A stretch of DNA of 64,000 bases from an uncultured Latescibacterota bacterium (GTDB lineage: Bacteria; Latescibacterota; UBA2968), in NCBI GenBank assembly GCA_958295785.1, contig OY282377.1:820394-884393 (forward strand), given 5' to 3'. The notes under the pieces are model-generated. The model ran no database searches and was not told the DNA's origin. It was given only the letters and a program-made list of their open reading frames with translations. Shown here one piece after another: positions 1 through 46,566 of the stretch; position 1 is the stretch's first letter, and each line of letters opens with the position of its first letter. Made by a program: the position numbers and the translations under genes.

Positions 1-90
1 GCGACGGCTCAACTCTCTGAGAGCAACGGGTATTTCTACCGGATCGATTTTGGCACGTCTCGTTTTGGTATCAAACGCCTGGTCTTTTGA
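1..90 (+). CDS. C-terminal end of an unidentified protein (partial)
   Basis: An open frame enters from the left edge and ends with TGA at 88-90, giving a 29-residue C-terminus ending FGIKRLVF. The next gene starts 55 bases later on the same strand. The fragment is too short to name, and it is called a gene end only because the frame is open from base 1 and the spacing to the next gene is ordinary. Confidence 0.35.
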   Translation, partial: ATAQLSESNGYFYRIDFGTSRFGIKRLVF

Positions 91-145
91 CTATTCGCAT
101 CATCCTTGTTCATCTGTGGTTCCAATTGCATGAGGAAGCGTTTCT

Positions 146-1399: not shown

Positions 1400-1552
1400 T
1401 GAACAAGGATCATACCTGCCCGTACGGGCGGTGGTTGGGCGGGTTTGAGAAGCGGGAAATACTGCGCCGAGCGGTTAGTTATCTGCGGTTTCAACCACAG
1501 CAACACCCTGCAGGCCCTTGTCGTCAACTCCGTTTTCTCACACCCCTTCGCT

Positions 1553-2905: not shown

Positions 2906-2927
2906 CCACAAAAGGCGAGCAGTATGT

Positions 2928-2954
2928 GTAGGGGCGATGCCCCCGTGCTCGCCC
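2928..2954. repeat. Short dispersed repeat, GTAGGGGCGATGCCCCC type
   Basis: One copy of a short partly palindromic repeat, core GGGGCGATGCCCC followed by CGTGCTCGCCC. Related copies lie at about 4058-4085, 4107-4133, 42567-42593, 45435-45461, 53935-53960 and 57539-57570, always between genes and in both orientations. It is REP-like in size and placement. Confidence 0.7.
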
Positions 2955-3063
2955 AAAGATACAAGAGGCGAGTTTTCATCATTCTGACGAAAGCATGCCC
3001 CTGTATGCTTAAAGCAGGGGTCAGAATCCAGTGATTTTTCTTTTTTTTTTCAGGAGGATTTAC

Positions 3064-3555
3064 ATGCCGACTTCATCTTCTGGACTTACGTGGTTGATTT
3101 TTGCATTTTTGACCGTTGCATCGTGGGGTTTGTACGGCATTTTTTTGCACGCCGGGCAAACCGCTATGGGCGATCCGGAAAATGGACGCTACAAAGCCTT
3201 TCTCTTCGTGGGCATTGCCTATTTGTTGACCGCCGTCATCGGGTCTCTGATCGTGCTGACGATCAACGGATCGGACTGGTCATTTCCGACAAAGGGCCTC
3301 ACATGGTCATTGCTGGCGGGCATTGTGGGGTCGATTGGCGCGTTTGGCGTTCTCCTCGCGTTTGGCGCGAAAGGCACGCCGCCCGTGGTCATGTCCATTG
3401 TCTTTGGGGGCGCGCCCATCGTCACTGCCATCGTTTCCCTCATCCTGCATCCGCCAGCCGGGGGATGGGGCAGTTTGAACTGGCAATTTATGCTCGGCAT
3501 TGTCCTTGCCGCTCTCGGCGGTTGTTTGGTGACATTGTTCAAGCCCTCATCGTGA
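3064..3555 (+). CDS. Small multi-pass membrane protein, half-size DMT/EamA-like
   Basis: 163 residues with about five hydrophobic segments and short charged loops. The GTPPVVMSIVFGGAPIVTAIVSL stretch, written here only as a landmark, resembles the repeated unit of drug/metabolite transporters, and the length matches one EamA half. Such half-size proteins usually dimerise, and the substrate is unknown. ATG 3064 is chosen because AGGAGG lies at about 3053-3058, a good spacing. The stop overlaps the GTG start of the thioesterase gene (GTGA), so the two are probably translationally coupled. Confidence 0.7.
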   Translation: MPTSSSGLTWLIFAFLTVASWGLYGIFLHAGQTAMGDPENGRYKAFLFVGIAYLLTAVIGSLIVLTINGSDWSFPTKGLTWSLLAGIVGSIGAFGVLLAFGAKGTPPVVMSIVFGGAPIVTAIVSLILHPPAGGWGSLNWQFMLGIVLAALGGCLVTLFKPSS

Positions 3556-3983
3556 CCGAAACCATGCCCAGTGAATTTCACACCACCCGCCGAGTTGCGT
3601 TCTCCGATACAGACATGGCCGGGATTGTACACTTTTCCCGGTTCTTTGTCTTTATGGAAGCGGCCGAGCACGCATTTTTGCGCACGTTGGGCACGAGTGT
3701 TTCAACAGCGTGGAACGGGAACAAAATCGGATGGCCCCGCTTGGAAGCGACCTGCACCTATCTCAGTCCGGCTGTCTTTGAAGACGTGTTGGACATTCAC
3801 CTGAAGGTGATCCGCAAAGGCACAAAATCCCTGACCTATCGGTTTGAATTTTCTCGCGGTGAAACACCCATTGCCCACGGCAAATTGAGCGTGGTCTGTT
3901 GTATCTGCAATCCCGGGGAAAAAATCAGGTCCATACCCATCCCGGATTTCATTGCCGATCAGATTCGAGAAGCAACCACATAA
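3552..3983 (+). CDS. Acyl-CoA thioesterase, 4HBT/YbgC-type hotdog protein
   Basis: About 143 residues with the hotdog-fold thioesterase signature near the N-terminus: FSDTDMAGIVHFSRFFVFME, where the Asp of TDMAGIVHF matches the catalytic Asp of YbgC-type enzymes. Such enzymes hydrolyse acyl-CoA thioesters in the cytoplasm. The start is either GTG 3552, overlapping the stop of the preceding membrane protein, or ATG 3564; no strong ribosome binding site decides. Coupling to a small transporter suggests a shared substrate, but this is inference. Confidence 0.8.
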   Translation: MTETMPSEFHTTRRVAFSDTDMAGIVHFSRFFVFMEAAEHAFLRTLGTSVSTAWNGNKIGWPRLEATCTYLSPAVFEDVLDIHLKVIRKGTKSLTYRFEFSRGETPIAHGKLSVVCCICNPGEKIRSIPIPDFIADQIREATT

Positions 3984-4057
3984 GAATGCAAAAGACGGAT
4001 CGCGGATTAAACGGATTGCGCGGATGAGAGGCAAAGGCAAGAGGCGAGGATAGAAAC

Positions 4058-4133
4058 GTAGGGGCGATGCCCCCGTGCTCGCCCGAATAGACGAAATCAA
4101 TGGAACGTAGGGGCGATGCCTCCGTGCCCGCCC
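4058..4133. repeat. Two tandem copies of the GTAGGGGCGATGCCCCC repeat
   Basis: Two copies of the short palindromic repeat (4058-4085 and 4107-4133) follow a degenerate copy of a second intergenic repeat related to CGGATTAAACGGATTGCGCGGAT at about 3998-4025. The whole 195-base gap between the thioesterase and the ABC transporter is made of such repeats. Confidence 0.7.
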
Positions 4134-4178
4134 GAAGGGATCGCACGCACATAGGGCAACTCGAGGCAGGAGGGCGAA

Positions 4179-4838
4179 ATGGCACTCAAAGTCGAGGCAC
4201 TTTCCAAACATTTTGGCGATGTAAACGTTCTGCGGGACATCTCTTTTGAAATGGCGCGGGGGCAGTCGCTGAGTATTATGGGCCCTTCGGGATCGGGCAA
4301 GAGCACGTTGTTGCACATGCTGGGCACGCTGGATCGGCCATCGTCTGGGCTGATCGAAATCGGCGGGCAAAATCCCTTCGCGTTGCCCGAACTCGCACTC
4401 GCGCAATTCAGAAATCAGGGCATTGGATTCGTGTTTCAAGAACACCATCTCTTGCCGCAATACTCGGTTGTGGAAAACGTCTTGATCCCAACGCTGGCAT
4501 TTGGCAAAACGAGCAGCGATGCGCGAGATCGCGCCCGAGATCTCATTGACCGCGTGGGCCTGTTGCATCGCATCGACCATCGGCCGAGCGAATTATCGGG
4601 CGGCGAGCGTCAGCGCACAGCCGTTGCGCGCGCCCTCATCAACCGCCCGGCATTGCTCTTGTGCGACGAACCCACCGGCAGTTTGGATGGCGTGCGCGCA
4701 GAAGAAATCGCGGACCTGATCTTTGAATTGCACCGCGAGGAAAACAACATCTCGATTTGCGCCACGCACAGCACGGCACTCGCCCATCGCTTTGAGCGAC
4801 AATTTGAACTGCGGGGGGGAACGTGCTTCGAAGCCTGA
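4179..4838 (+). CDS. ABC transporter ATP-binding protein, LolD/MacB type
   Basis: 219 residues, the usual size of a LolD/MacB-class ATPase. Walker A is GPSGSGKST near residue 39, the signature motif is LSGGERQR near 145, and Walker B is ALLLCDEPTGSLD near 165. An AGGAGGGCGAA ribosome binding site precedes ATG 4179. Its end overlaps the start of the large FtsX-type permease by 16 bases, so the two form an operon and probably one complex. This class usually drives lipoprotein or peptide extraction and envelope processes rather than classical solute uptake. Confidence 0.93.
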   Translation: MALKVEALSKHFGDVNVLRDISFEMARGQSLSIMGPSGSGKSTLLHMLGTLDRPSSGLIEIGGQNPFALPELALAQFRNQGIGFVFQEHHLLPQYSVVENVLIPTLAFGKTSSDARDRARDLIDRVGLLHRIDHRPSELSGGERQRTAVARALINRPALLLCDEPTGSLDGVRAEEIADLIFELHREENNISICATHSTALAHRFERQFELRGGTCFEA

Positions 4839-7800
4839 CCTACTTCTGGCGAATCAATCTGGCAGTCGCGCTCGGCATCGCCATCGCCACAGCGGTTTTG
4901 ACCGGCGCGCTGATCGTGGGCGATTCCGTGCGCGGCAGCCTGAAGGACCTGTCCCTGAGTCGCTTGGGCAAAATTGACCACGCGCTCGTCAACGAGCGAT
5001 TTTTCCGCGCGAGTCTCGCACGCGATCTCAAAAGCGATCTCGACGAACGCTTTGCCGATGTGGTCCCGGCCATCAGCCTGCGCGGAACCGCGATACACGC
5101 CAACGCATACACCCGCGCATCTCGCGTTCAAATTCAGGGCATTGACAACCGCTTTGCAAATCTGTTTGATCACCCCTTGCCCGAACTGGAACGCAAGGCC
5201 GCATTCCCACCCGTTGTCATCAACGAATCCCTCCAGCGCGAACTCAACGCGCAAATCGGCGATCCCATTCTCCTGTCGTTTGAACAAGTCGGCAACAGTC
5301 ACCGCGAATCCCTATTTGGTCGCGCGTCAGATGCGGTGCAAACCATCCGCTTGACCCTCGCCGCCGCGTTGCCCGACAAGGGCATGGGACGCTTTGGCCT
5401 CCACACCCATCAGACCGTCCCGCGCAACGCCTACCTCGCGCTGCCCGTCTTGCAACGCGCACTGGGGCAAACCGACCGCGTCAACGCCTTGCTGGTCGCG
5501 GGCGCGCCCGATGCAGACCTTCAAACCGCACTTTCCCGAATCGCAACCCCGGACGATCTCGGCCTGGTCGTCCGCCGTGCAACCGATTACTTCTCTATCG
5601 AAAGCACGCAGTTCATCCTCAAAGCACACACCGCAGAAGCCATTCAAACACTCGCTACCGAACTCAACGCGCCCTCTGTGTCCATCCTCACCTACCTCGC
5701 CAACACCGCGCAAATCGGCACGCGGGAACTGCCCTATTCCACGATCTCCGCGATAGATGCTGGACACCTCGGTTCTTTTGACCTCATAGATGGATCATTG
5801 CAACTCGGCGACAATGGCATTTTGCTCAACGCCTGGGCAGCCGAAGATTTGCAAGCGCGGGTCGGCGATGAGGTCAAAATTGCCTATTACGAAGTCGCGC
5901 CCGGGGAAAAATTTCTCACTCGCTGGGCCACATTCCAACTCAAAGGCATTGTCGCAATGACGGGATTGGGCGCAGACGAGACCCTGTCGCCCGACTATCC
6001 GGGCCTGGGCGATGCCACCGACATGGCCGATTGGGAAGCCCCGTTCCCCATTGACCTAACGCGCGTTCGCCCCCGGGATGAAAATTATTGGGACACCTAT
6101 CGAGACGCGCCCAAAGCCTTTGTCTCTGCCGCGACCGGGCAGCGATTGTGGAAAAGCCGATTCGGCGCGTTCACCGGCATCCGCATCGGCCCCATCGACG
6201 GGCAAAGTCTTGAAACAACGCTTGGGCAATTTCTGGATCGCTTGCCCAATGCCATCGCGCCCGAATCCGTTGGCCTCGCGTTTCAGCCCGTCAAGCAACA
6301 GGGCATTGCCGCGGCGGCGGGCGCGACGGATTTCAGCGGGTTGTTCATCGGCTTCAGCCAATTCCTCATCATATCCGCAGCCCTGCTCGTGGGCTTGTTA
6401 TTTCGCCTGAGCGTGGAACAGCGCGGCAGAGAAGTTGGCCTGCGGATGGTGTCGGGCTACACGGCAAAAAAAATCCGTCGACAGTTCAGCCGCGAGGGTC
6501 TCGCCTTGGCCTGTGTGGGCGGGATATTGGGACTTGCGGGCGGGGTCGCGTACGCGCATCTCATCATGGTCGGCCTGCGAACGCATTGGGTCGGCGCGGT
6601 TGGCACGTCTGAGCTCGCGCTTCACATCCACGCACAGAGTTTGCTGTTGGGCTATGCGATTTCACTCGCTGTCATTTTATCGACAATCTGGCTCACGCTC
6701 CGCCGTTTGGGCGGCATTGCCATTCGCGCATTGTTGTCGGGCATCACCGAAGCCGCGCGTGCAAAACCGCGCACCAGATGGTACGCGCTGATCAGCCTCG
6801 CGCTCGCCGCGGTCGCGCTCACGGGCGCGGTCATGGTGGGGCCATCAGAGGGCGCAACCTTGTTTTTTGCCAGCGGCGCGCTGTGGATGGTTTCTGGCCT
6901 GTGCTTTTTGTCGCTCCATCTCAGGCGCGGGCCTCGTGTGCTCGGCGCAGGTGCGGTTGGCATGGGCATTCAAAACAGCGGGCGACAACCCGTGCGGAGT
7001 TTGCTGTGCGCCTCGCTCATCGGATGCGCGTGTTTTGTCCTCGTTGCAACCGGTGCGAACAGGCGCACGGACCTCGCGCAAAACATCGCCCGTGACAAAG
7101 CCTCGGGCACGGGTGGCTTTGCCCTCATCGCCGAAACAGATGTGCCGGTTTATCACGACTTTCATTCCAAAGACGGGCAATTTGAACTCGGGTTTTCGCA
7201 AGCAGAAGCAGAACGCTTGGATCGGACGCGGATCATCCCCCTGCGCGTTTTGCCCGGCGAAGACGCGAGTTGCCTCAACCTGTACCGCCCCGAAAGCCCG
7301 CGCATTTTGGGCGTTCCCGAATCCCTGATCCAGCGCGGCGGCTTTGCCTTTCAGCAGACCCTTGACGAAATGGAAAACCCCTGGGCCGCGTTGTCTCAAG
7401 ACTTGGGCGCAGGGGTGATTCCGGCTGTCGGCGATTACAATTCCGCCATGTGGATTTTGCACAAACAATTGGGCGGTGATATCGCAGTGCAAAACGAGGC
7501 GGGCGAAGAAGTGAAATTGAGATTGGTGGGCTTGTTAAAAACGAGCATTTTTCAAAGCGAATTGTTGATTTCCGAGAGCCATTTCTTGCAACACTTTCCC
7601 GGGCAAAGTGGATACCGCGCCTTTCTCATCGAAACGCAACACCCCGTTGAACTCACCGCGCTCCTCGAAAACCGCTTAAAAGACATCGGCTTGGACGCCA
7701 CGCCAACCGCGCAAAAACTCGCCCATTTTCAGGCCGTTGAAAACACCTATCTTTCCACCTTTCAAACCCTGGGCGGCTTGGGCTTGCTCTTGGGCACGCT

Positions 7801-8128
7801 CGGCTTGGGCATCGTCCTGTTGCGAAATGTTATTGAAAGGCGCGGCGAATTGGCGGTTCTGCGCGCCTTTGGCTTTCGCCGCGCCGCGCTCTCGCGCATG
7901 CTCCTTGCGGAAAACGGCTTCTTGATGCTCGTCGGCCTCGTCATCGGAAGCCTGGCCGCGCTCATCGCCGTCGCGCCCCATGTCATCGCGTACGGCGCGT
8001 TGGTCCCTTGGGCATCCCTCGGCCTCACCCTCGGCATCATCTACGCCACCGGCCTCATCGCCAGCGCAATCGCCGTCTCCTTCGCCCTGCGCGCCCCGCT
8101 ACTACCCGCGTTGAAGCGGGAAATTTGA
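4823..8128 (+). CDS. Large FtsX/MacB-type ABC permease
   Basis: 1101 residues, a fused double-length permease of the FtsX superfamily. A first transmembrane segment (about residues 12-32) is followed by a large extracytoplasmic MacB-like periplasmic region, then a membrane block at about 510-680. A second periplasmic region follows, and a last membrane block near 970-1095 carries the FtsX-type RGELAVLRAFGFRRAALSRM segment. The same REVGLRMVSGYTAKKIRRQF motif occurs at the first block, so the protein is an internal duplication. The GTG start lies after a GGGGGGA tract inside the ATPase gene. Substrate unknown; envelope lipid, lipoprotein or peptide export is likely from the family. Confidence 0.88.
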   Translation: MLRSLTYFWRINLAVALGIAIATAVLTGALIVGDSVRGSLKDLSLSRLGKIDHALVNERFFRASLARDLKSDLDERFADVVPAISLRGTAIHANAYTRASRVQIQGIDNRFANLFDHPLPELERKAAFPPVVINESLQRELNAQIGDPILLSFEQVGNSHRESLFGRASDAVQTIRLTLAAALPDKGMGRFGLHTHQTVPRNAYLALPVLQRALGQTDRVNALLVAGAPDADLQTALSRIATPDDLGLVVRRATDYFSIESTQFILKAHTAEAIQTLATELNAPSVSILTYLANTAQIGTRELPYSTISAIDAGHLGSFDLIDGSLQLGDNGILLNAWAAEDLQARVGDEVKIAYYEVAPGEKFLTRWATFQLKGIVAMTGLGADETLSPDYPGLGDATDMADWEAPFPIDLTRVRPRDENYWDTYRDAPKAFVSAATGQRLWKSRFGAFTGIRIGPIDGQSLETTLGQFLDRLPNAIAPESVGLAFQPVKQQGIAAAAGATDFSGLFIGFSQFLIISAALLVGLLFRLSVEQRGREVGLRMVSGYTAKKIRRQFSREGLALACVGGILGLAGGVAYAHLIMVGLRTHWVGAVGTSELALHIHAQSLLLGYAISLAVILSTIWLTLRRLGGIAIRALLSGITEAARAKPRTRWYALISLALAAVALTGAVMVGPSEGATLFFASGALWMVSGLCFLSLHLRRGPRVLGAGAVGMGIQNSGRQPVRSLLCASLIGCACFVLVATGANRRTDLAQNIARDKASGTGGFALIAETDVPVYHDFHSKDGQFELGFSQAEAERLDRTRIIPLRVLPGEDASCLNLYRPESPRILGVPESLIQRGGFAFQQTLDEMENPWAALSQDLGAGVIPAVGDYNSAMWILHKQLGGDIAVQNEAGEEVKLRLVGLLKTSIFQSELLISESHFLQHFPGQSGYRAFLIETQHPVELTALLENRLKDIGLDATPTAQKLAHFQAVENTYLSTFQTLGGLGLLLGTLGLGIVLLRNVIERRGELAVLRAFGFRRAALSRMLLAENGFLMLVGLVIGSLAALIAVAPHVIAYGALVPWASLGLTLGIIYATGLIASAIAVSFALRAPLLPALKREI

Positions 8129-8169
8129 CGCGCCCTTTCCCCATTGACGTCCGGTGACGCAAAAACATG

Positions 8170-8204
8170 CCCCCGCCTGTACGTCAACAGACGGGGGGTT
8201 CTCT
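8170..8204 (+). terminator. Possible terminator after the ABC operon
   Basis: An inverted repeat CCCCCGCCTGT/ACAGACGGGGG with one mismatch and a six-base loop is followed by a short TTCTCT tract. It sits 40 bases after the permease stop. The T tract is poor, so this is tentative. Confidence 0.45.
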
Positions 8205-8289
8205 GTTGTACCTTGCGAGAAATCACAATGAGCCGTATCCATCCAACCCATCAAATCGGTTTCATTTGTTGGGCAAGTGCTAATACTAA

Positions 8290-9381
8290 TAGGACTTACG
8301 CAATCCCCATTGGAATATGAGGTGCTTTGAGTTGTTGTCTCAAGAAGTCAGCCATCCCCCGGTATTTGACTTGATAAATGTGTTTGTCCTGTTTGATAGG
8401 CCACCTGCGCGAGTCGAATCCAAACGAACATCGCACACCCAATATGATTTCGTACCATGCGTGCCAACCGACATGGACCCTTTTCAAGCCCGGTCACTTG
8501 TTTGACTTCGCGGTGAAATTGCTCAATTTTCCATCGTTGGTGACACACCTGTTGTACCCCTGAAGAATCGTTTTGAGCATGGTCGTTGGTTACGACATAC
8601 GCCGTGCGTCTGGCAGCAGACGCCACCCGGAATAATTTCACTTTGTGGTCTTTGGGGACCCCTCTGATTTTAATTGGCTTGCCTTGTTTGCGTTGCGCTT
8701 TCGTCCAAGTTAAGCTATCTACGCGCTGGTAGGGGGTTGTGCCTGCCGAATCGTCCACGCGCCGGTTCGTCTTGAGGGGACAAGAATAGGTTTTTTGCAT
8801 CTGCTCTCTGTGTCGCATGACTGTTTTGGTCGCATACCCACTGTCCATCAAGACCCCGGTAAAAGGGAGGCCCTTCTGATAGACCAACGCAGAGCGCATG
8901 TCCTTGAGAGGATCCCATTTGGTTTTGCCATCGCCTTGCGGGTCATAAATCCGATAGTCAATCAGCCAGAACCGATCCTGTTGCGGATTGACATAGACAC
9001 ATGTGACCACCCCAATGCCATTGATGACGCCTTGGGCGTTGCCGCTCTCTTGACGACGCACTCACGCGATCTTGCGCGCGTGTCGCTTGTCTAAAACCGT
9101 GTCATCAAAGATCACATAGCCTTCAGGCGTCAGCGCGATGTGGTCTTTGACGTGTTCCCACACCAAGCGGGGGGGATACGATCACCGGCGAGATAGCGGT
9201 TGATCATATCATGACTGAACCCTTCGCTATGGTCGGCGAAAGGGGTCAGGGTATCGTTGAGGGGACTGCTAAGCAGATACTGACAGTAATCCAAACGCGT
9301 CGGTTGGCGCATTGACACCTCCTCAAAGTGATAAATTTTACGGAATTGCACCCTTTTTTATCTCAGCATGCGTAAGTCCTA
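8290..9381 (-). mobile_element. IS701-like insertion sequence, copy 1 (inactive)
   Basis: 1092 bp bounded by perfect inverted ends TAGGACTTACGCA (8290) and TGCGTAAGTCCTA (ending 9381). It is flanked by a 5-bp direct repeat ACTAA (8285-8289 and 9382-9386). It has the same length as the second copy at 45475-46566. The flanking sequence, rejoined without the insert and one repeat, reads aatactaaattgattttc, which is the end of the MITE-like repeat seen elsewhere in this window, so the element jumped into that repeat. Its transposase gene is broken. Confidence 0.93.
8296..9312 (-). pseudogene. Transposase of IS701-like copy 1, disrupted
   Basis: The reading frame begins MRQPTRLDYCQYLLSS behind a GAGGAGG site, as in IS701/IS4-superfamily DDE transposases. 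It keeps the blocks VLMDSGYATK, YCPLKTNR, YVVTNDH and RWKIEQFHREVKQ. It is broken three times: a one-base deletion near 9170 (GDRIPP then frameshift), an in-frame TGA at 9064-9062 just before the RRQxSGN block, and a one-base insertion near 8378. The TGA is shared with the other copy; the two frameshifts are private. Intact length would be about 338 residues. Confidence 0.9.
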
Positions 9382-33796: not shown

Positions 33797-35086
33797 TCAA
33801 GTCAAGGGGTTTGCCGTCGATTGGGCCAGCGCGTCTTCCGGCTTGGGGATGTTCACAAACCATGCGGCGAGGGCAATGAGCAACACGGGCGGGGCCAGCG
33901 CGTAAAACGCGGGGGCATAAGTGCCCGCAGAGCTAAAAGTATCCGCAATAAACCAGGGGCCGATTGCGGACGCCAAAACCGCAAACACCTGTGCGGCCCC
34001 CTGAATTTTGCCCAGATGAAGGCGGCCAAAAATATCTGCCCAAGCCGTAAAAAAAATCACGGAAACCACGCCACCCGAAAAACCGAGCAGGCCCGCGTGT
34101 CCCAGAACTTGCCACGCGGTGTCGAGGTGGGGAAACGCGAGCAAGTAAATGCCAACCGCCAGCATCGCAACGGTCATCAGCCTGCCCAAAGACCAATAGC
34201 GCGCGGCCCAACCCGCCAGAAAATTCCCCAATAACCCGGTCGCCATGAACGCGGCCATCGCGTTTTGAAACGCGGTTTCATCAAACCCGAGTTCGCCCAA
34301 TATCGACTGATTGAACAGCATCACCCCTGCGATGATCAAATTGTAGAGCGCGCTACCGATGGCAAACACCCAAAAAGCCGGGGTCAACAGTGCTTGGACG
34401 AGGGTAAATCCAATCACCGGGTCAGGCACTTTGTCATCTTCGACAAGCTCTGTATCCAGCCCCACGGATTCGGGGTCGCGCCTGACAAATAGCGGGGACA
34501 GACCCGCGACGATCAGCAAAATCCATCCCATGCCCGACCACATCACCCGCCAACCGCGGTTGAGAACCACATCGCCAGCAACGACAATGGCCACGGCAAA
34601 GCCCACGCTCATCAGAACGGCAAAAATGCCCATGGCAATGCTCAAGCGGCGCACGAACCATTTGCCAACAATAGTCAGGCTGACCACAGACAGCGCGCTT
34701 TGCCCTATGCCGCGCATAAAAATGAGCAGAAAAAGCAGGATGCCAAAACTCGCCACATGGCTAAATTGCAATACCAACGCGCTTAGCACAAAGAGCACCG
34801 CTGTCACGACAGCGCGCACCCCAAAGCGATCGATGGCGATGCCGCAGATCACATTGAACAACGCCCCACCGATAGTCGCCCAAAAATTCATCTTCGCAAA
34901 CACGAGTCGGGAAAGGCCCAAATCCGCGATCAAAGGCTCTGTGATCAAGCCAATGCCAACACTTCTGCCCGGCAGCGTTGCGACCATTGCGATAGCCGCA
35001 AAAACCAAATTCACCCAGCCGTAATAAAAGGGAATGCGCGCGGGCCATGCATTGCCAAAAATATTTTTGAACATCAATGCCCCCAT
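33797..35086 (-). CDS. Major facilitator superfamily transporter
   Basis: 429 residues with 12 predicted transmembrane helices of MFS type. GIAIDRFGVRAV between helices 2 and 3 is the usual motif-A position. The first block runs to about 210 and the second from about 240. Substrate unknown. The start at 35086 has AGAGGCG upstream; the open frame reaching 35137 runs into the terminator of the preceding gene, which argues against the longer start. Confidence 0.88.
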   Translation of the reverse strand: MGALMFKNIFGNAWPARIPFYYGWVNLVFAAIAMVATLPGRSVGIGLITEPLIADLGLSRLVFAKMNFWATIGGALFNVICGIAIDRFGVRAVVTAVLFVLSALVLQFSHVASFGILLFLLIFMRGIGQSALSVVSLTIVGKWFVRRLSIAMGIFAVLMSVGFAVAIVVAGDVVLNRGWRVMWSGMGWILLIVAGLSPLFVRRDPESVGLDTELVEDDKVPDPVIGFTLVQALLTPAFWVFAIGSALYNLIIAGVMLFNQSILGELGFDETAFQNAMAAFMATGLLGNFLAGWAARYWSLGRLMTVAMLAVGIYLLAFPHLDTAWQVLGHAGLLGFSGGVVSVIFFTAWADIFGRLHLGKIQGAAQVFAVLASAIGPWFIADTFSSAGTYAPAFYALAPPVLLIALAAWFVNIPKPEDALAQSTANPLT

Positions 35087-35113
35087 GTGAAAATCGCCTC
35101 TAAACACAAAATC

Positions 35114-35153
35114 AAAAAGCTCCAACAAGCCGTTCATTTTGTCGGAGCTTTTG
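35114..35153 (-). terminator. Rho-independent terminator of the TIGR04255 cassette
   Basis: On the minus strand AAAAGCTCCGACAA pairs with TTGTTGGAGCTTTT around a short loop and runs into TTTTTGATTTTG. It lies 17 bases after the stop at 35170. Confidence 0.88.
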
Positions 35154-36928: not shown

Positions 36929-37750
36929 CTATCTATCCTTGTCAAAACACGCCTTGAGCTTTGCCAGTCCTTCTTCTGCGACCGCGACAGGGCCCTTTGC
37001 CCAATAGGTCGGGTTGAACAACTCCAAAGACAAGTATCCCGCGTTTTCAAGCCCGGCCACGATTTTGGGCCAAGGTGCCAGTCCATCGCCCGGATAGACC
37101 CGGTCCGCGTCTGTTAGGGCGGCGCGTTGGGGCAGGGCTGGATAATCATTGACATGCACCAAGCCCAATTTGCCCGGCCCCAGGTGTTCCAATCCGTGAA
37201 AATGCCCGCTGCCTTTGTACATGTGATAGATATCAGCCAAAAGCACGGTGTCTGGTCGCCCGCATTCAGCGGCTACGAACAATGCTTCGCCCAAGGTGCC
37301 CAGGGTTTGTGCAATGCCCCAAAACTCCAGCAGGGGTTTGGCCTGAAATTCGGCGACCACGTCTATCAATTCGGCATACCGCCGCGCCACGGAAAACAGA
37401 TCGACCTTGCGGTTTTGAACCCCATAAGGCGGCGCGGCCACATAATCACAGTGGAGCGCGTCTGCCATTTCAAAACAGCGACGGGCTTCTTCAATCCCCT
37501 TGGCACGCGGCGCATCTTCGGGCACTGCCCACTCGAAAAACGCAATCAAATTGACAATTTGAATTTTCCTATCGGCGGCTTTGTCGCGTATATCGATCAG
37601 CGCACCGCCCGCAGAAACCCAGTCGTCAATTTCTTTCACCCACAGTTCAACGCCCTCGTACCCCGCATCGGCCGCAATGTCAATGGCATTGACCGCGGAA
37701 ACCTCGGCGTTGCGAATTGTGCTGGTGTTCAAACAATAAGAAAATCCCAT
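36929..37750 (-). CDS. Sugar phosphate isomerase/epimerase-like TIM-barrel protein
   Basis: 273 residues of the AP-endonuclease-2/xylose-isomerase-like TIM-barrel family. The N-terminal strand FSYCLNTSTIRN, the DAGYEGVELWVKE segment and VHVNDYPALPQ near 215 are typical metal-binding regions. Members interconvert keto/aldo sugars or act on inositols. AAGGAG precedes ATG 37750; a longer open frame into the sulfatase gene is not needed. It ends 13 bases from the neighbouring sulfatase on the same strand, so the pair suggests uptake and breakdown of a sulfated sugar. Confidence 0.88.
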   Translation of the reverse strand: MGFSYCLNTSTIRNAEVSAVNAIDIAADAGYEGVELWVKEIDDWVSAGGALIDIRDKAADRKIQIVNLIAFFEWAVPEDAPRAKGIEEARRCFEMADALHCDYVAAPPYGVQNRKVDLFSVARRYAELIDVVAEFQAKPLLEFWGIAQTLGTLGEALFVAAECGRPDTVLLADIYHMYKGSGHFHGLEHLGPGKLGLVHVNDYPALPQRAALTDADRVYPGDGLAPWPKIVAGLENAGYLSLELFNPTYWAKGPVAVAEEGLAKLKACFDKDR

Positions 37751-37763
37751 GGATTGCGCTCCT

Positions 37764-39152
37764 TTATATACTCGGCAACGGCGCGGTGTCGCCGGTTTCG
37801 CGTTGCCATGAACGGATCGTCGCCGCCATGTTGCGAATGCGGTCTCGGTGTTCGGGCGCGTCAAACAGATTGATTTCCTCAAATGGATCGGCATTGAGGT
37901 CGAACAATTCGCACTGATCGCCGGCGCACAAATTCAGCTTATAGCGGTCGCCGGTCACCACACATCGCCACGGCAGCGTGGCGATGAGATCGATGTCGGG
38001 ATTGCCCAAATTGCGGTCGCCGATCCCATTCCATTCCATAAACGCCCTGTGATCTTTCAAATCGCGTTCCCCGGTCAACGCACCGGCCGCGCTCTCGCCC
38101 TGACAGGCATCTGGAATCGGCACGTCGGCCAAAGCCAAAAGCGTGGGAAGCAAATCCGCATGCCCAAACACGCCATCGATCCGCTTTTGCTCTGCGTTCA
38201 ACCACGGCACGGACAACAACAATGGCACGCGGGCCGACTCCTCGTAAAATGCCCGCTTTTCCCACATGCGATGATCGCCGGCCATCTCGCCGTGGTCACT
38301 CGTAAATGCAAAAATCGTGTTCTCCATCTGCCCGGTTTCCGCAAGTGCCCGCACCATTTTGCCAATGGCGTCATCCACAATTTTCACATTGCCCAAATAC
38401 TGCGCCCGCAACTTGCGCCAGTTCTCATCTCGCGTCATGTCGGTGGCGACAACCCGCGCATCGGTGGTGTTGCGATAAAACGCTGATCGCACGCGGTTGA
38501 ACAGGGAATGACCTTCTGGATGTTTCAAAAATGTCGGCCCCACCGGGAGTTCTTCGGGGTCGTACAAGCCGTCATAAGGCCCTCGGTACGGCGGGTGCGG
38601 CTCAAATGTGCTGGCGACGAGCAGCCACGGTCGCCCTGCATTTTCCCGAATAAACCGCGCTGACTCCTGGCCCACATAAGCCCCGATTTGCGCGGATGCG
38701 GGCATGGTGGCGCGTTGTTGCGGCGTGAACCGGCCGGGCACGTCCGGCGCAAAGCCCCGATCCGATAGCCACTGGTGATAGCCGCCCCCATCGGCAATGC
38801 TGCACCACTCGTCAAACCCGTGCTGACAATTTCCATCATCCCCCAAATGCCACTTGCCCACATAGCCCTTGCGATAGGTGGCGGGCATCATTTCGGCGAT
38901 AGACGAGGTCTCTCGTCTCAGCGGGATGCCATTGACCACACACCCATGGGCATGCGGATAAAGCCCGGTCATTAGCGACCCCCGCGACGGCGTGCAAACC
39001 GCCTGCGTCACATAGGCATTTTCAAAAACAAAACTGCGTGCTGCCAGCGCGTTTTGATGCGGCGATTGAATCCACGCATTGCCATAACACGCCATCGTAT
39101 CCGTGCGCTGCTGATCGGTAATGACAACGACGATGTTGGGTTGATGTGACAT
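37764..39152 (-). CDS. Sulfatase (formylglycine type)
   Basis: 462 residues of the sulfatase family. VITDQQRTDTMACYG near the N-terminus is the metal site, CTPSR at 53-57 is the formylglycine signature, GKWHLGDD is near 103, and TSDHGEMAGDH is near 280. AAGGAG-like GGAG lies before ATG 39152; TTG 39164 also opens the frame but is unlikely. It belongs to a run of sulfatase-fold genes at 37.8-42.5 kb, all on the minus strand. Confidence 0.92.
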   Translation of the reverse strand: MSHQPNIVVVITDQQRTDTMACYGNAWIQSPHQNALAARSFVFENAYVTQAVCTPSRGSLMTGLYPHAHGCVVNGIPLRRETSSIAEMMPATYRKGYVGKWHLGDDGNCQHGFDEWCSIADGGGYHQWLSDRGFAPDVPGRFTPQQRATMPASAQIGAYVGQESARFIRENAGRPWLLVASTFEPHPPYRGPYDGLYDPEELPVGPTFLKHPEGHSLFNRVRSAFYRNTTDARVVATDMTRDENWRKLRAQYLGNVKIVDDAIGKMVRALAETGQMENTIFAFTSDHGEMAGDHRMWEKRAFYEESARVPLLLSVPWLNAEQKRIDGVFGHADLLPTLLALADVPIPDACQGESAAGALTGERDLKDHRAFMEWNGIGDRNLGNPDIDLIATLPWRCVVTGDRYKLNLCAGDQCELFDLNADPFEEINLFDAPEHRDRIRNMAATIRSWQRETGDTAPLPSI

Positions 39153-39274
39153 TGTGTTCTCCAAAAAAGACAGATAAAATGAATCACTTAGAAGTTGTCT
39201 TAAAACGAAAGATGACCCCTCCCCCGGCTCCTCCCTGCAACGGGGAGGGGAGATGTTCTATCCCCTTTTCTTTT

Positions 39275-39712: not shown

Positions 39713-41047
39713 TCAGCATTGCCGTTCAAAATGCCTGCCCTGTTTGGATGCTTGCCATTGGGCCTCGGTGTCGATCTCTGCGCCGGGGTCGCCCTGTTCG
39801 GTCATCCACCGGTCGAGTTCGGCAGACAGGCGTTCTTTTGCCGCTGCATGGGCGGGGTCATCGGCCAGATTGGTCAGTTCGCAGGGATCGTCATCCATGC
39901 GATACAATTGCTCGGCCGGGCGATGCAGGTAGCGGTTCACCACAAAGCGCGTGTGTTCGTTGAACGTCGTATCCACCACCCAAGTCGGCCAGTATTGGTG
40001 CCATTTGTTTGCCCCCATCAAATGCTTTTCGATATAAATTGCCTCGGGCGCGAGATTGCGGATGTAGTGATGCGTGCCATCCGTCACCGCGCGGATCGGA
40101 TAGGGCGGGCCTTCGGGGATGTTGTTGTGCATAAAATAGGCGTGTTCCCGATGCGCGTCTGCATCGCCCAAAAGCACGGGGAGAAAACTCGATCCATCGA
40201 AATCTATCGCCTGTGGATCGCCGCCCGCAGCGCGAATAAGCGTGGGGGTGACATCTTCGTATTGGATGATCGCATCCGTATGGCCCGGCGAAACCCTGCC
40301 CGGCCAGCGGACCACAAACCCCGTGTGGATGCCCGTGTTCCAATTCGTCCACTTGCAGCCGGGAAACTGAGACCCCTGTTCGGACGTGAAAATCACTATC
40401 GTGTTGTCTGCCTGACCGCTCTGCGCCAGCACGTCGAGAATGTCGCCGACCTCCCGATCCAGCACTTCGATCTCTGCGAGGTACTTGGCGTAATCACTGC
40501 GCGTCTCGGGCGTGTCGGCCATATAGGGCGGCAACTTCAGCGCGTCGAGATCAAAATGCTCGGCATTGCCCAAGGTCCACGGCGCGTGCGGTTCAAAAAG
40601 CCCGACCACGAGACAAAAGGGCGCGTCTGGATTTTGCCCCACAAATGCGCGAATCCCCTCAACGCCGAACTCGGGATTGGGATGCACGCACCCGCCCTCA
40701 ATGCCCGGCACATTTTCAAAGGGAAAACTGCGATGGGGGCCGACGTGCTTCTTGCCGCACAGGCCCACCCGATAACCGAGGTCGCCGAGGTAGTGCGGGA
40801 GGCTTTTGGTGCCCGGACGCGCGGCAGAGTGGTTCCAGCACGCCCCGTTGCGGACCGGATGCAAGCCCGTGTAGAGCGCGGTGCGGCAGGGGTTGCACAT
40901 CGCCATGGGCAAATACGCCCGATTAAAAACCAATCCCTCGCGTGCGAGGCGGTCGATATTGGGCGTTTTGACATTTTGCCCGCCGTACAGGGACAAATCG
41001 TTGTAGGTCGCATCATCTGCGATTGCGATCAAGATATTCGGTTTCAC
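39713..41047 (-). CDS. Sulfatase (formylglycine type)
   Basis: 444 residues from GTG 41047, which overlaps the stop of the next upstream gene (GTGA) and has AAAGGGGGG before it; the longer frame to 41272 is inside that gene. The metal motif IAIADDATYNDL and formylglycine motif CNPCR at 51-55 are present. GKKHVGPHRSF lies near 115 and FTSEQGSQFPG near 235. Substrate is unknown. It forms an operon with the sulfatase-fold gene at 41044-42486. Confidence 0.9.
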   Translation of the reverse strand: MKPNILIAIADDATYNDLSLYGGQNVKTPNIDRLAREGLVFNRAYLPMAMCNPCRTALYTGLHPVRNGACWNHSAARPGTKSLPHYLGDLGYRVGLCGKKHVGPHRSFPFENVPGIEGGCVHPNPEFGVEGIRAFVGQNPDAPFCLVVGLFEPHAPWTLGNAEHFDLDALKLPPYMADTPETRSDYAKYLAEIEVLDREVGDILDVLAQSGQADNTIVIFTSEQGSQFPGCKWTNWNTGIHTGFVVRWPGRVSPGHTDAIIQYEDVTPTLIRAAGGDPQAIDFDGSSFLPVLLGDADAHREHAYFMHNNIPEGPPYPIRAVTDGTHHYIRNLAPEAIYIEKHLMGANKWHQYWPTWVVDTTFNEHTRFVVNRYLHRPAEQLYRMDDDPCELTNLADDPAHAAAKERLSAELDRWMTEQGDPGAEIDTEAQWQASKQGRHFERQC

Positions 41048-42486
41048 AATCCCCCCTTTGCGAGGCCCAAGCGGATCGACAATTCTGATGGCGCGTGAAT
41101 CGCGCGCAATTTTTCGACCATCAACTGCTGCAGGCGGGATAGCGTTTCGAGTTCTCGATCTGCGAGATCGCGTTCCTGTTTGGGATCCGATGGCGCGTGG
41201 TACAACCGCGTTTTGTGTTTTTCGGGATGGCGCGCGGGCGTCAATTTGCACCTGAGCACATCGGCATCCCAATCGAATTGATTGCGGTTGGCAATGATGC
41301 TCGAATACGCATACACGGGCGGGTTGGATTCATCCACGCCCTGCAACAGCGCGTATTCGCCATCTGCAATATTGCATGTCCCCGCAAACTGGCCGTACAA
41401 AATCGCATCTCGGCCCGGCGCGCGTTCATCCCGAAGATATGGCATCAGGCTTTGACCGTGCAGGCGCGCCCCTTTGGGCACATCCAAGTCCATCGCGTCC
41501 AACACCGTTGGAAAATAGTCTATCGGTTGCACAAATTGTTTGGGGCGCGTGCCGTGCCCCCATTCGGGATGCCAGACAATTAGGGGAATGCGCGCAATCT
41601 CATCCCACAACACCCAGTTTTTCCCGGTGCGCCCGTGGTCCCCATTGTGCGTTCCGTGATCAGACGCGAGAATCACCATTGTCTCGGCCATCAATCCCAT
41701 GTTCTCGACCTGATCGAGAAAATGACCGACCCATCGATCCACCATCGTGATTTCACCCGCGTAAATCGCCTGCACGCGCTTCAACTCCGCTTCTGTCAAA
41801 TTGCCCGCCACCCAATCGTAAGGCGCGACCGGATACTCATCGACCGCCTCGTCGGAATTGTCGTACAACGCGACGTAATGACGCGGCGGGTCCCATGGCT
41901 CGTGGGGATCAAACGAATCGATCATCAAAAAGAAATCCCGATCCGCATTGTGTTGAACCCACCGCACGGCCCGCGAAAACAACTGCGGCGAAAACCAGTC
42001 GCGCTCTTCTCTGCGGAGATACTGTACATTTCGAAAGTGCGGCTGATCGGGTTTGTTGTGCGGGGGATAATCCAATGTCCGATTTTCAAAGGCGATGTCC
42101 CCATCGGTGACATACCGGTCGCGCTCCTGCCCGCGCACGATATCAAATCCGGAAAAGGGCCGCCAATAGCCACTGCCCAGGTTGCTCGTCCAGTGGTGAT
42201 ACACATCCGTAAAAAAGTAGGACACCTTCCCCGCCGCGTGTACGGTGCCGCCCAGGGTCACATCGTCAGGCTCTAGACCGCCCCATCCGCGCCACGGAAA
42301 TTCGTATCGCCCGGTGGCGATATCGCGTCGGCAAGGTAGCGTGGGATACGACGCCAAATACGCATTGTCAAAAACCGCGGCCCGCTCGGCGAACCGGTCG
42401 ATATTCGGCGTGTGAATCCACGCATTGCCATAGCATCCCGCGTGATCTCGCCGCCATGTGTCCAGCACAATTAAAATGACATTCAC
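41044..42486 (-). CDS. Sulfatase-fold protein lacking the nucleophile Cys
   Basis: 480 residues of the alkaline-phosphatase superfamily. N-terminal LIVLDTWRRDHAGCYG is a normal metal site, but at the formylglycine position the sequence reads TLPCR (49-53) where the gap-free comparison with CTPSR of the 37764 gene needs Cys or Ser. Thr49 therefore replaces the nucleophile, unlike in active sulfatases and more like phosphoesterases that use Thr. ASDHGTHNGDHG near 260 is intact. AGGAGG lies upstream of ATG 42486. It may be a phosphodiesterase or phosphonate-type hydrolase, or an inactive homologue. Confidence 0.75.
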   Translation of the reverse strand: MNVILIVLDTWRRDHAGCYGNAWIHTPNIDRFAERAAVFDNAYLASYPTLPCRRDIATGRYEFPWRGWGGLEPDDVTLGGTVHAAGKVSYFFTDVYHHWTSNLGSGYWRPFSGFDIVRGQERDRYVTDGDIAFENRTLDYPPHNKPDQPHFRNVQYLRREERDWFSPQLFSRAVRWVQHNADRDFFLMIDSFDPHEPWDPPRHYVALYDNSDEAVDEYPVAPYDWVAGNLTEAELKRVQAIYAGEITMVDRWVGHFLDQVENMGLMAETMVILASDHGTHNGDHGRTGKNWVLWDEIARIPLIVWHPEWGHGTRPKQFVQPIDYFPTVLDAMDLDVPKGARLHGQSLMPYLRDERAPGRDAILYGQFAGTCNIADGEYALLQGVDESNPPVYAYSSIIANRNQFDWDADVLRCKLTPARHPEKHKTRLYHAPSDPKQERDLADRELETLSRLQQLMVEKLRAIHAPSELSIRLGLAKGGL

Positions 42487-42875: not shown

Positions 42876-43946
42876 ATGGACACGGATTACAGTGCTTCAA
42901 TTTTGGAGGGCTTGGGCGAGGGTATTGTGGCGTTTGACAAAACGCATCGGGTCGTGATGGTCAATGGGCATCTGATCACATTGATGGGTTGGGACGAGCA
43001 GACCGTTTACGGGGCATTGCCCGAGCAGTTGTTTGCCCAACGGCCCGAACTGTTGCGGACTTTGAACCAGGGGTTGAAAAAAAAAGAATTGGCGTCAGAC
43101 ACAGATCTGGTACATCACAATGCCGACGGGGGGTTGCAGCACCTGCGCGTGAGCACGTCGTTTTTGGATGCCGAGACGCGGACTGGGCTGGTGCTGGTCG
43201 TGCGCGATGTCTCGCAAATGAAGCGGATGGAATGGGAGATTTTTCAAATTGAGAAAATGACCGCGCTGGGCCGGTTGGCCGCTTCGGTTGCCCATGAAGT
43301 TCGCAACCCGCTGGGGGCGATAGACATTCAATTGCAGTTGTTGGCAGAAGACCTCGGCACGTTGACGAACACTGCAAAAGCGCGTCTTTTGGGACGGCTC
43401 AACATTGCCCAAACAGAGATGAAACGCCTCGACCGCATCGTGCATAATTTTTTGCGTTTCTCGCGCACGCCCAAACTCCATTTGCGAGATATGTCGCTCA
43501 ACGACATCGTTCGCCATGTCTTTGAATTGGTCTCTCCCGAAGCACGCGAGCGCGAAATCGCATTGCGTCTGGAACTTTCCGAAAACTTGCCCGTGATAAA
43601 TGGGGACGAAGATCAACTCGGTCAGGCCGTGCTCAATATTGTGGTGAATGCCTTTCAGTCTATGGGCGACGGCGGCGACTTGATCGCCCGAACGCAACCG
43701 GAAGCGGCGCAGGTTTGTCTGACGTTGATGGACACGGGATGCGGGATTCCCGAAGGAGAAGTGGATCGCATTTTCGAGTTTTATTTCACGACCAAAGACG
43801 AAGGCACCGGGTTGGGATTGTCCATTGCCCAGCGCATCATTTATCAGCACGGCGGGCACATCGACGTGGAGAGCAGCCCCGGACAGGGCACGACCTTTTG
43901 GATATATTTGCCCGTGCCCGACGCGCAAACAGAGGAACGGGTATAG
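42876..43946 (+). CDS. Sensor histidine kinase (PAS-HisKA-HATPase)
   Basis: 356 residues, cytoplasmic. A PAS domain at about 1-115, HisKA with the phosphoacceptor in SVAHEVRNPLGAID near 140, then HATPase_c with the N box NIVVNAFQSMGDG, G1 DTGCGIPEGE and G2 GTGLGLSIAQRII. No membrane segment, so the signal is internal, as for NtrB-type sensors. AGACGGAGG lies before ATG 42876. A sigma-54 response regulator follows 27 bases on and is surely its partner. Confidence 0.93.
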   Translation: MDTDYSASILEGLGEGIVAFDKTHRVVMVNGHLITLMGWDEQTVYGALPEQLFAQRPELLRTLNQGLKKKELASDTDLVHHNADGGLQHLRVSTSFLDAETRTGLVLVVRDVSQMKRMEWEIFQIEKMTALGRLAASVAHEVRNPLGAIDIQLQLLAEDLGTLTNTAKARLLGRLNIAQTEMKRLDRIVHNFLRFSRTPKLHLRDMSLNDIVRHVFELVSPEAREREIALRLELSENLPVINGDEDQLGQAVLNIVVNAFQSMGDGGDLIARTQPEAAQVCLTLMDTGCGIPEGEVDRIFEFYFTTKDEGTGLGLSIAQRIIYQHGGHIDVESSPGQGTTFWIYLPVPDAQTEERV

Positions 43947-43973
43947 CCAGTCGTACACCGCTTGAGGCAACTT

Positions 43974-45398
43974 ATGAACGCCAGTGAAATTCGGATTTTA
44001 ATTGCAGACGACGAATACTACATCTGCGAAGGACTGCGGGAGGCCCTGGTCAAAAACGGCTATCGCGTCGACGTGGCCTACGACGGTCACAAGGCAAAAA
44101 CCCTGATGGAAACCCGGGCTTATGACGCCGCGATCATTGACCTCAAAATGCCGGGCCAAGACGGACTCGCACTTTTGAAATGGGTGCGCGAAGCCAATCT
44201 CGACATCGGCATCATCGTCATCACGGCTTACGGCGAAGTGGAAACCGCTGTCGAGGCCATGCGGCGCGGGGCTTATGATTATTTGACCAAGCCCGTGGCC
44301 CTGAAGCGATTGCACTTGTCCTTAGAGCGATTGCTGGACCACCAAGCCCTTGTCGCTGAAAACCGCGCCTTGCGCGCACGGCTGGATTCCAATGGGGGCA
44401 ATAGCGAAATCGTACACAGAAGCGCGGTTATGGAACACGTCTGCGACACCATCGGCCAAGCGGCCATGACCGACGTGCCCGTGCTGATCACCGGGGAAAC
44501 CGGCACGGGAAAAGAACTCGTGGCGCGCGCGATACACCGGGCCAGCGCGCGGCGAAACGCGCCGCTGGTGGCGATGAACTGCGGGGCATTCGCCGAAACA
44601 TTATTTGGTAGCGAGTTGTTCGGATATATCAAAGGCGCGTTCACGGGCGCGACAGCGGACAAGGCGGGGCATTTTGCAGCCGCGGAAGGCGGCACGCTTT
44701 TCTTCGACGAAGTGGGCGAAATCCCCTTGCCCAATCAGGTCGATCTCCTTCGCGTCTTGGAAGAAAAAGCCTATCGCCCGGTGGGCAGCACCAAAACGGT
44801 GAGCGCAGATGTGCGAACCATTTTTGTCACCAATCGCGATCTCGAGCGAGAAGTGGCAAACGGGCGATTCAGAGAAGACTTGTACTATCGCATCAATGTC
44901 GTGCCCATTCGGTTGCCGCCGCTTCGAGCGCGCGTTGAAGACATCCCCCTCTTGATCGACGTGTTTTTTGAAAACCTCTGCGTGTTGCACCACAAACCGC
45001 GCAAGGAATTGACGCCCGAAGCCATGGACAGAGTGCTGGCCTATTTCTGGCCCGGCAATGTGCGCGAATTGAAAAACACCATCGAGCGCGTGGTCGTAAC
45101 CTGCGCGGATCAAAAGGTCGATGTCGATCATCTGCCTTCTCGCGTGCGCGATGCACGAGATGCGACAGACACCATCACAATCCAACTCGGCTCATCGCTT
45201 GCAGAAGCAGAACGCGCCCTCATCGAAAAGACGCTCGCCCAAGGCCCTGCAAATCGCAAAGAGGCCGCGGCGATGTTGGGGATCAGCGTCCGCGCGTTGC
45301 AATACAAGATCAAGGCGTACAATCTGTCCGAAAAAATGCAAAAAGCGAATTTGCCACAAAAAGCACCAAAAGCACGAGCGGGGGACAACTGGCGATAG
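43974..45398 (+). CDS. NtrC-family sigma-54 response regulator
   Basis: 474 residues. Receiver domain at 1-120 with acidic pair D12/D13 and phosphoacceptor D56 (IIDLKMPG). AAA+ domain at about 140-370 has GETGTGKELVA, the sigma-54 contact loop GAFTGA, and FFDEVGEIP. A Fis-type helix-turn-helix closes the protein (KEAAAMLGISVRALQYKIK). GAGG lies before ATG 43974; TTG 43962 is less likely. It activates sigma-54 promoters after phosphorylation by the kinase upstream. Its targets are unknown. Confidence 0.94.
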   Translation: MNASEIRILIADDEYYICEGLREALVKNGYRVDVAYDGHKAKTLMETRAYDAAIIDLKMPGQDGLALLKWVREANLDIGIIVITAYGEVETAVEAMRRGAYDYLTKPVALKRLHLSLERLLDHQALVAENRALRARLDSNGGNSEIVHRSAVMEHVCDTIGQAAMTDVPVLITGETGTGKELVARAIHRASARRNAPLVAMNCGAFAETLFGSELFGYIKGAFTGATADKAGHFAAAEGGTLFFDEVGEIPLPNQVDLLRVLEEKAYRPVGSTKTVSADVRTIFVTNRDLEREVANGRFREDLYYRINVVPIRLPPLRARVEDIPLLIDVFFENLCVLHHKPRKELTPEAMDRVLAYFWPGNVRELKNTIERVVVTCADQKVDVDHLPSRVRDARDATDTITIQLGSSLAEAERALIEKTLAQGPANRKEAAAMLGISVRALQYKIKAYNLSEKMQKANLPQKAPKARAGDNWR

Positions 45399-45474: not shown

Positions 45475-46566
45475 TAGGACTTACGCAATCTCCATTGGAA
45501 TATGAGGTGCTTTGAGTTGTTGTCTCAAGAAGTCAGCTAGCCCTCGGTATTTGACTTGATAAATGGTTTGTCCTATTTGATAGGCCACCTGCGCGAGTCG
45601 AATCCAAACGAACATCGCACACCCAATATGATTTCGTACCATGCGTGCCAACCGACATGGACCCTTTTCAAGCCCGGTCACTTGTTTGACTTCGCGGTGA
45701 AATTGCTCAATTTTCCATCGCCTGTGACCCCCCTGTTGTACCCCTGAAGAATCGTTTTGAGCATGGTCGTTGGTCACGACCTACGCCGTGCGTCTATCAG
45801 CAGACGCCACCCGGAATAATTTCACTTTGTGGTCTTTGGGGACCCCTCTGATTTTAATGGGCTTGCCTTGTTTGCGTTGCGCTTTCGTCCAAGTTAAGCT
45901 ATCTACGCGCTGGTAGGGGATTGTGCCTGCCTACTCGTCCACGCGCCGGTTCGTCTTGAGGGGACAATAATAGGTTTTTTGCATCTGCTCTCTGTGTAAC
46001 ATGACCGTTTTAGTCGCATACCAACTGTCCATCAAGACCCCGGTAAAAGGAAGGCGCTTCTGATAGACCCACGCAGAGAGCATGTCCTTGAGAGGATCCA
46101 ATTTGGTTTTGCCATCGCCTTGCGGGTCATAAATCCGATCGTCAATCAGCCAGAACCGATCCTGTTGCGGATTGACATAGACACATGTGACCACCCCAAT
46201 GCCATTGATGACGCCTTGGGCGTTGCCGCTATATTGACGACGCACTCACGCGATCTTGCGTGCGTGTCGCTTGTCTAAAACCGGGTCATCAAAGATCACA
46301 TAGCCTTCAGGCGTCAACGCGATGTGGTCTTTGACGTGTTCCCACACCAAGCGGGGCGGGATACGATCACCGGCGAGATAGCGGTTGATCATATCATGAC
46401 TGAACCCTTCGCTATGGTCGGCGAAATGGGTCAGGGTATCGTTGAGGGGACGGCTAAGCAGATACTGACAGGAATCCAAACGCGTCGGGTGGCGCATTGA
46501 CACCTCCTCAAAGTGATAAATTTTACGGAATTGCACCCTTTTTTAACTCAGCATGCGTAAGTCCTA
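45475..46566 (-). mobile_element. IS701-like insertion sequence, copy 2 (inactive)
   Basis: 1092 bp, the same length as copy 1, with inverted ends TAGGACTTACGCA and TGCGTAAGTCCTA and a 5-bp direct repeat GAGAT on both sides (45470-45474 and 46567-46571). Sequence is close to copy 1 with scattered base changes. The transposase frame is interrupted. It lies between the response regulator and a repeat-rich gap. Confidence 0.93.
45481..46497 (-). pseudogene. Transposase of IS701-like copy 2, disrupted
   Basis: The frame starts at ATG 46497 behind GAGGAGG and would give about 338 residues. It carries the same domains as copy 1, with VLMDSWYATK, YCPLKTNRR and RWKIEQFHREVKQ. Three stops interrupt: TGA at 46248-46246 (codon 84, also in copy 1), TAG at 45933-45931 and TAG at about 45781. 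No frameshift is needed here. Confidence 0.9.

Follow-up and report, generated by a model that had tools for sequence, protein, structure and literature searches.

Recurrent Thr/Cys switches at the formylglycine position in a family of sulfatase-fold proteins that includes one from an uncultured Latescibacterota bacterium

Formylglycine is a costly modification and is taken to define sulfatases of the S1 type. The window analysed here, a stretch of 64,000 nucleotides from an uncultured Latescibacterota bacterium, encodes a sulfatase-fold protein (hereafter the query) with a Thr residue at the formylglycine position, raising the question of whether this Thr is real and by what chemistry such a protein could act. 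The query matches PF00884 over residues 2-333 with an E value of 8.9e-35 in a Pfam search and has a full-length sulfatase fold. There is no N-terminal extension ahead of the first beta strand, suggesting that the protein is probably cytoplasmic. The TGA stop codon of the query gene (41046-41044) overlaps the GTG start codon (41047-41045) of a sulfatase gene with a C-N-P-C-R motif to form GTGA, in agreement with the overlap reported in the initial annotation. The genes of this run are listed in Table 1; the true start of the AP_endonuc_2 protein probably lies inside its ORF, and the MFS transporter possibly belongs to the same uptake and catabolism region as the query. A PAS/HisKA sensor kinase gene at 42876-45398 on the plus strand is divergent from the sulfatase gene run, as is the sigma-54-type response regulator gene after it, a call made from sequence alone. 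An ORF of 104 amino acids at 45931-46245 on the minus strand resembles a transposase fragment and has no Pfam match. In a first look, the window genome, a single contig of 5.66 Mb, gave 106 sulfatase-like candidates.

Table 1. Coordinates of the query gene, its key codon and the genes of the same run in the window.
Feature	Position	Strand	Basis
Thr-nucleophile sulfatase-fold protein (query), 480 aa	41044..42486	-	ORF, GTG start; PF00884 match
Thr49 codon ACG, formylglycine position	42340..42342	-	Codon read; helix 49-58 starts here in the model
Downstream sulfatase, C-N-P-C-R and GKxH	39713..41047	-	ORF, Pfam, alignment
Second CxPxR sulfatase, C-T-P-S-R	37764..39164	-	ORF and Pfam
Xylose-isomerase-like TIM barrel protein (AP_endonuc_2)	36929..37894	-	ORF and Pfam
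MFS transporter	33797..35137	-	ORF and Pfam

The query motif F39-D-N-A-Y-L-A-S-Y-P-T49-L-P-C52-R53 aligns without gaps with F-E-N-A-Y-V-T-Q-A-V-C-T-P-S-R of the second CxPxR sulfatase, and so the initial annotation was correct in placing Thr49 at the Cys position. A Cys residue sits three residues past Thr49, and the same annotation had named Cys52 as an alternative occupant of the nucleophile pocket. This alternative fails because Pro51 and Arg53 fix the register and column 52 is variable, being Ala in 34, Cys in 26, Asn in 22, Thr in 11 and His in 8 of 121 ORFs of the family described below, with other residues elsewhere. Column 49 of these ORFs is Thr in 94 and Cys in 25, with two lacking data, and Cys52 itself corresponds to the latter of the two Cys residues in C-N-P-C-R of the downstream sulfatase. 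Consistently, helix 49-58 begins at Thr49 in an AlphaFold2 model of the query (mean pLDDT 78.5, pTM 0.86). The probability that the assignment of Thr49 is an alignment artefact and that Cys52 is the nucleophile is therefore negligible. Thr is kept in 9/9 same-genus orthologues with 85-86% identity, found in nine of the ten same-genus genomes searched, and its codons are ACG or ACC as against TGC for Cys, thereby excluding a sequencing error.

The query belongs to a family with members in many phyla. Five proteins of the window genome, the query and four others (L002-L005), fall into it, all with Thr. When a family profile built from 18 relatives (alignment A1) was used for scoring, 121 ORFs of a first set exceeded 380 bits, with every other ORF under 230 bits, and 181 ORFs of an enlarged set scored at least 383 bits, the next rows having 334 and 226 bits. 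These scores indicate that the family is discrete. It lies next to formylglycine sulfatases and phosphonate monoester hydrolases in the alkaline phosphatase superfamily, and the query is probably a metal-dependent hydrolase. Among the best 80 of 582 confirmed loci, hosts include Armatimonadota, Planctomycetota, Kiritimatiellota, Sumerlaeota, Chloroflexota, Paenibacillaceae and Bathyarchaeota, among others, and one relative in these 80 loci (L050) is 86% identical to the query. After removal of near-copies with more than 97% identity and of three family ORFs without the motif, 145 distinct members remained, with Thr in 114, Cys in 31 and Ser in none at the nucleophile position. The collection of orthologues proposed in the initial annotation thus shows that Thr in the query is not an isolated case. 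The three motif-less ORFs are one fragment and, twice, the 3' part of a Sumerlaeota gene (L053 4683-6449, L182 1183-2949) broken by one in-frame TAG, which reflects a broken gene, an assembly error or read-through. A family protein of another genome, G664, lies in a frame of 1218 amino acids (L159 1495-4440, L201 2062-5094) instead of the usual 480-510, either by fusion or through a missed stop. The Sumerlaeota genome G063 carries five family genes (L179, L181, L182, L183 and L184) on three branches of the tree.

According to the initial annotation, the active site seems otherwise preserved. Columns with at least 97% conservation in the 145 members include Asp9, Arg53, Asp94, His195, Glu196, Asp199, Asp276, His277 and Lys289, and the claim stands for Asp9, Asp276 and His277, Arg53, His195 and Lys289. 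It does not stand for the Lys of the GKxH motif, whose position is occupied by Asp (Asp94) in 121/121 family ORFs, Cys members included, compared with Lys in 37/41 other sulfatases, nor for the residue after the first metal-binding Asp, which is Thr or Ser in 119/119 family ORFs with data (Thr10 in the query) compared with Asp, Gln or Glu in 37/41 other sulfatases. A His residue at position 97, offset by one from the GKxH His, is present in 105/121 family ORFs. The metal pair is Asp-His rather than Asp-Asn, Asp276 and His277 each being found in 120/121 family ORFs. The metal set of choline sulfatase is described as Asp14, Cys54, Asp296 and His297, with a His201-Lys309 pair (PMC5870055), and the metal-site residues of EfAS are given as D20, C61, D311 and H312 (PMC12421950). 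On alignment with these two enzymes, Asp9, Thr49, Asp276 and His277 should hold one metal, and His195 and Lys289 should serve the leaving group. Residues 94, 190, 193, 195, 196 and 199 of the query form a cluster of acidic and His residues that is mostly absent from other sulfatases, and its residues are invariant or nearly so in the family. The Asp/His/Glu cluster (Asp94, Asp190, Asp193, His195, Glu196 and Asp199) could be a second metal site.

The closest known relatives share some of these features and lack others. Like the S1 formylglycine sulfatases (SulfAtlas S1, PF00884), the query has the fold over its whole length (Z up to 37), the Asp/Asp/His metal ligands and the Pro and Arg of CxPxR, but Thr replaces Cys or Ser, T-L-P-C-R thus departing from the [CS]-x-P-x-R maturation motif, Asp replaces the GKxH Lys, and Thr or Ser replaces the Asp or Gln after the first metal Asp. 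The PehA phosphonate monoester hydrolases/phosphodiesterases (RlPMH and BcPMH; SulfAtlas S1_0) share the fold (Z 33-36) and a His residue as fourth metal ligand, whereas their nucleophile is formylglycine derived from Cys and the query has Thr49 at this position. The best NCBIfam match of the query is PehA (NF045661), with 128.4 bits against a cut-off of 900. Members of the ENPP family (PF01663, which matches query residues 176-357 above the Pfam cut-off) have a Thr nucleophile at the same place of the fold by alignment, but they contain two zinc ions, for the second of which the Asp/His/Glu cluster of the family is a candidate counterpart. Since both sulfatases and phosphonate monoester hydrolases are among the best fold matches of the model (Z 37 to 33), the fold cannot pick the substrate, and a fold search was uninformative in this respect.

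Thr and Cys have switched several times independently within this family. For a careful tree, the 145 members were thinned to 66 rows and the motif columns were removed; in this tree, a clade of 37 rows with a support of 100/99 contains 26 Cys rows and 11 Thr rows. The Thr rows occupy three separate spots in this clade, namely the query group of nine rows (100/98), L184 and L183, the last of which has T-M-P-A-R and is placed inside a C-M-P-A-R group. The well-supported branches of this motif-free tree force at least four Thr/Cys changes, and a single Cys clade is rejected by the AU test (p 4.15e-5). A position of the query group outside the Cys-containing clade is also rejected (p 0.015), a weaker result; the groups were defined after inspection of a first tree. 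An origin of the Cys clade from Thr ancestors is hinted at by an outgroup tree but unsupported. Since joining all other Thr rows is not rejected (p 0.718), and the tree holding them together exceeds the result of the free quick search by 17 log units, either direction at the base is allowed, including four changes from Cys to Thr that start from an ancestor with Cys. Met50 is kept in L183 and L184 (T-M-P), which fits the Cys-to-Thr direction there. The loss of the GKxH Lys and these recurrent switches are the two features that the initial annotation of the active site had missed.

The Cys members bear the formylglycine motif C-M-P-A-R, and if they carry formylglycine, they would need FGE or anSME. 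In 17/17 Cys-member genomes examined, there is either an anSME above the TIGR03942 cut-off (12 genomes) or, in 5 Paenibacillaceae genomes, a PF03781 gene that scores about 281-293 bits, and the FGE Cys signature is present in the one of these five genes that was inspected. A maturase lies in the locus of 5/31 distinct Cys members and of 0/114 Thr members (Fisher p 3.4e-4, ignoring shared ancestry and with mixed flank lengths): FGE is within the Cys loci L055, L056 and L061, and anSME is directly upstream of the Cys member in L166 and L167, with an ATGA overlap in L167. In two Ktedonobacteria clusters (L191 and L192), anSME is a few kb off. His95 shows a similar distribution, being present in 30/31 Cys members and 1/114 Thr members, counts that ignore shared ancestry; for a sign test relating His95 to the identity of the nucleophile, only four independent pairs are available, with three in agreement, none against and one without difference (p 0.25). 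Four of seven small genomes with Thr members lack both an FGE-type gene and anSME, although these genomes may be incomplete. By the same Cys signature, the window genome carries its own FGE, and so the absence of a maturase cannot account for Thr in the window. This explanation is also rejected for the Sumerlaeota genome G063, in which Thr is found in all four genes whose motif can be read (L179, L181, L183 and L184) despite an anSME above the cut-off.

The gene neighbourhoods of Thr and Cys members also differ. When neighbours were probed with 11 proteins in flanks of up to 5 kb around 61 Thr and 18 Cys loci, GHL6 was found in 5/18, a solute-binding protein in 5/18 and an importer in 6/18 Cys loci, as against 0/61, 0/61 and 1/61 Thr loci, respectively. 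Another sulfatase gene is present in 7/61 Thr loci and 4/18 Cys loci. L055 contains, in this order, an ABC sugar importer, the glycosidase-like GHL6, the Cys member, two chromate-transporter halves and FGE, an arrangement that suggests desulfation of an imported sugar. From about position 1 to 8850, L055 and L056 (Cohnella and Paenibacillus) contain a probable operon of importer, GHL6/fucosidase-like protein, Cys member, chromate-transporter halves and FGE (Pfam on L055), and sulfate, once liberated, might leave the cell through the chromate-type transporter. Next to the query, the initial annotation had proposed coupling to an active-type sulfatase. The gene overlap is conserved within the genus, where all nine orthologues are followed by the same C-N-P-C-R sulfatase gene with a frame overlap longer than that in the window, but such a neighbour was not found beside the query-group genes examined in other phyla with the C-T-P-S-R sulfatase as probe, suggesting that the pairing is lineage-specific.

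How might the Thr members act? We lean slightly towards a reading in which the Thr members, the query included, use a Thr alkoxide directly, probably on phospho-esters, without formylglycine. The Cys members would receive formylglycine by maturation and desulfate imported sugars as sulfatases, and the Thr members would undergo no maturation, their Thr alkoxide attacking on one divalent metal held by Asp9, Thr49, Asp276 and His277, with His195 and Lys289 assisting the leaving group. The substrate would most likely be a phospho-ester (a diester, a monoester or a phosphonate ester), because a Thr-sulfate ester cannot leave by the formylglycine elimination route, and the phospho-Thr intermediate would be hydrolysed by water. 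Formylglycine sulfatases are described as releasing sulfate by general-base cleavage of a hemiacetal (PMC5870055), and most ENPP phosphodiesterases are reported to have a Thr nucleophile (PMC11677397). Since Thr cannot carry out hemiacetal cleavage and is the usual nucleophile of ENPP phosphodiesterases, a phospho-ester is preferred, although the position of the query among sulfatase genes fits sulfate chemistry and argues against this choice. The query would probably work on a small molecule that has been imported into the cytoplasm, and the co-translated sulfatase may act on this compound or a related one. The phosphodiesterase-like enzyme suggested in the initial annotation is thus plausible and is the leading reading of the residues at hand, namely Thr, Asp in place of Lys and the other retained site residues.

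It is unlikely, but chemically conceivable in view of choline sulfatase, that the Thr members are true sulfatases without formylglycine, working through a slow Thr-sulfate or by direct attack of water in the pathways of their Cys relatives. Choline sulfatase with unmodified Cys is reported to retain slow turnover (PMC6189696), so formylglycine is not absolutely needed for sulfate hydrolysis. In the tree, the query group sits within Cys relatives, some of which adjoin FGE, sugar importers and chromate-type transporters, and the query gene overlaps a CxPxR sulfatase gene, all of which favour sulfate chemistry. However, the sulfatase Lys is Asp throughout the family, even in the Cys members, 113/114 Thr members lack His95, and few Thr loci contain another sulfatase gene; moreover, a Thr-sulfate ester is chemically ill-suited to giving up its sulfate. 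The Thr members could also be transferases that move a phospho-group between alcohols via phospho-Thr, like lipoteichoic acid synthase and phosphoethanolamine transferases, in which the nucleophile is Thr and one metal is catalytic. However, neither a membrane segment nor a lipid context was seen, and the family retains the His195/Lys289 leaving-group pair of hydrolases, making this quite improbable. The initial annotation had also considered a regulatory homologue. A non-catalytic role of the query in regulating the downstream sulfatase would fit the gene overlap conserved across the genus, but conservation of the metal ligands and of further residues in the active site reaches at least 97% in 145 members from many phyla, and 54/61 Thr loci of the 5-kb set are without another sulfatase gene, leaving such a role very improbable.

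The occurrence of Thr in sulfatase-fold proteins is itself already known: Barbeyron et al. (2016) state that Thr replaces Cys or Ser in 30 of the 59 PF00884 seed sequences and call the PF00884 profile a source of false annotation (PMC5066984). This paper alone was found to state it, in a literature search that was thin on subscription journals. The example motif given there is T-x-N-x-E (PMC5066984), whereas the query keeps T-x-P-x-R and has close relatives with Cys. The same literature search gave no report of recurrent Thr/Cys switching in one family with maturases on the Cys side only. These observations lead to a hypothesis, for which the chances seem about balanced, that one family toggles between formylglycine, which goes with Cys, an additional His95 and, in certain lineages, an adjoining maturase, and plain Thr, and that Thr arose in at least three places in an otherwise Cys-bearing clade, the window lineage included. 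The cost of maturation would have been dropped by re-tooling of the pocket, the Asp/His/Glu cluster perhaps providing a second metal site, and either the substrate would have changed from sulfate to phosphate esters or sulfatase activity would have been retained. Related Thr and Cys members, some of the latter with their own maturase, would allow a direct test of what formylglycine gains. The family bears on the interconversion of sulfatases and phosphoesterases and on the number of misnamed 'sulfatase' genes, and counts of sulfatases in Latescibacterota, Armatimonadota and Planctomycetota that rely only on PF00884 would take in these Thr proteins.
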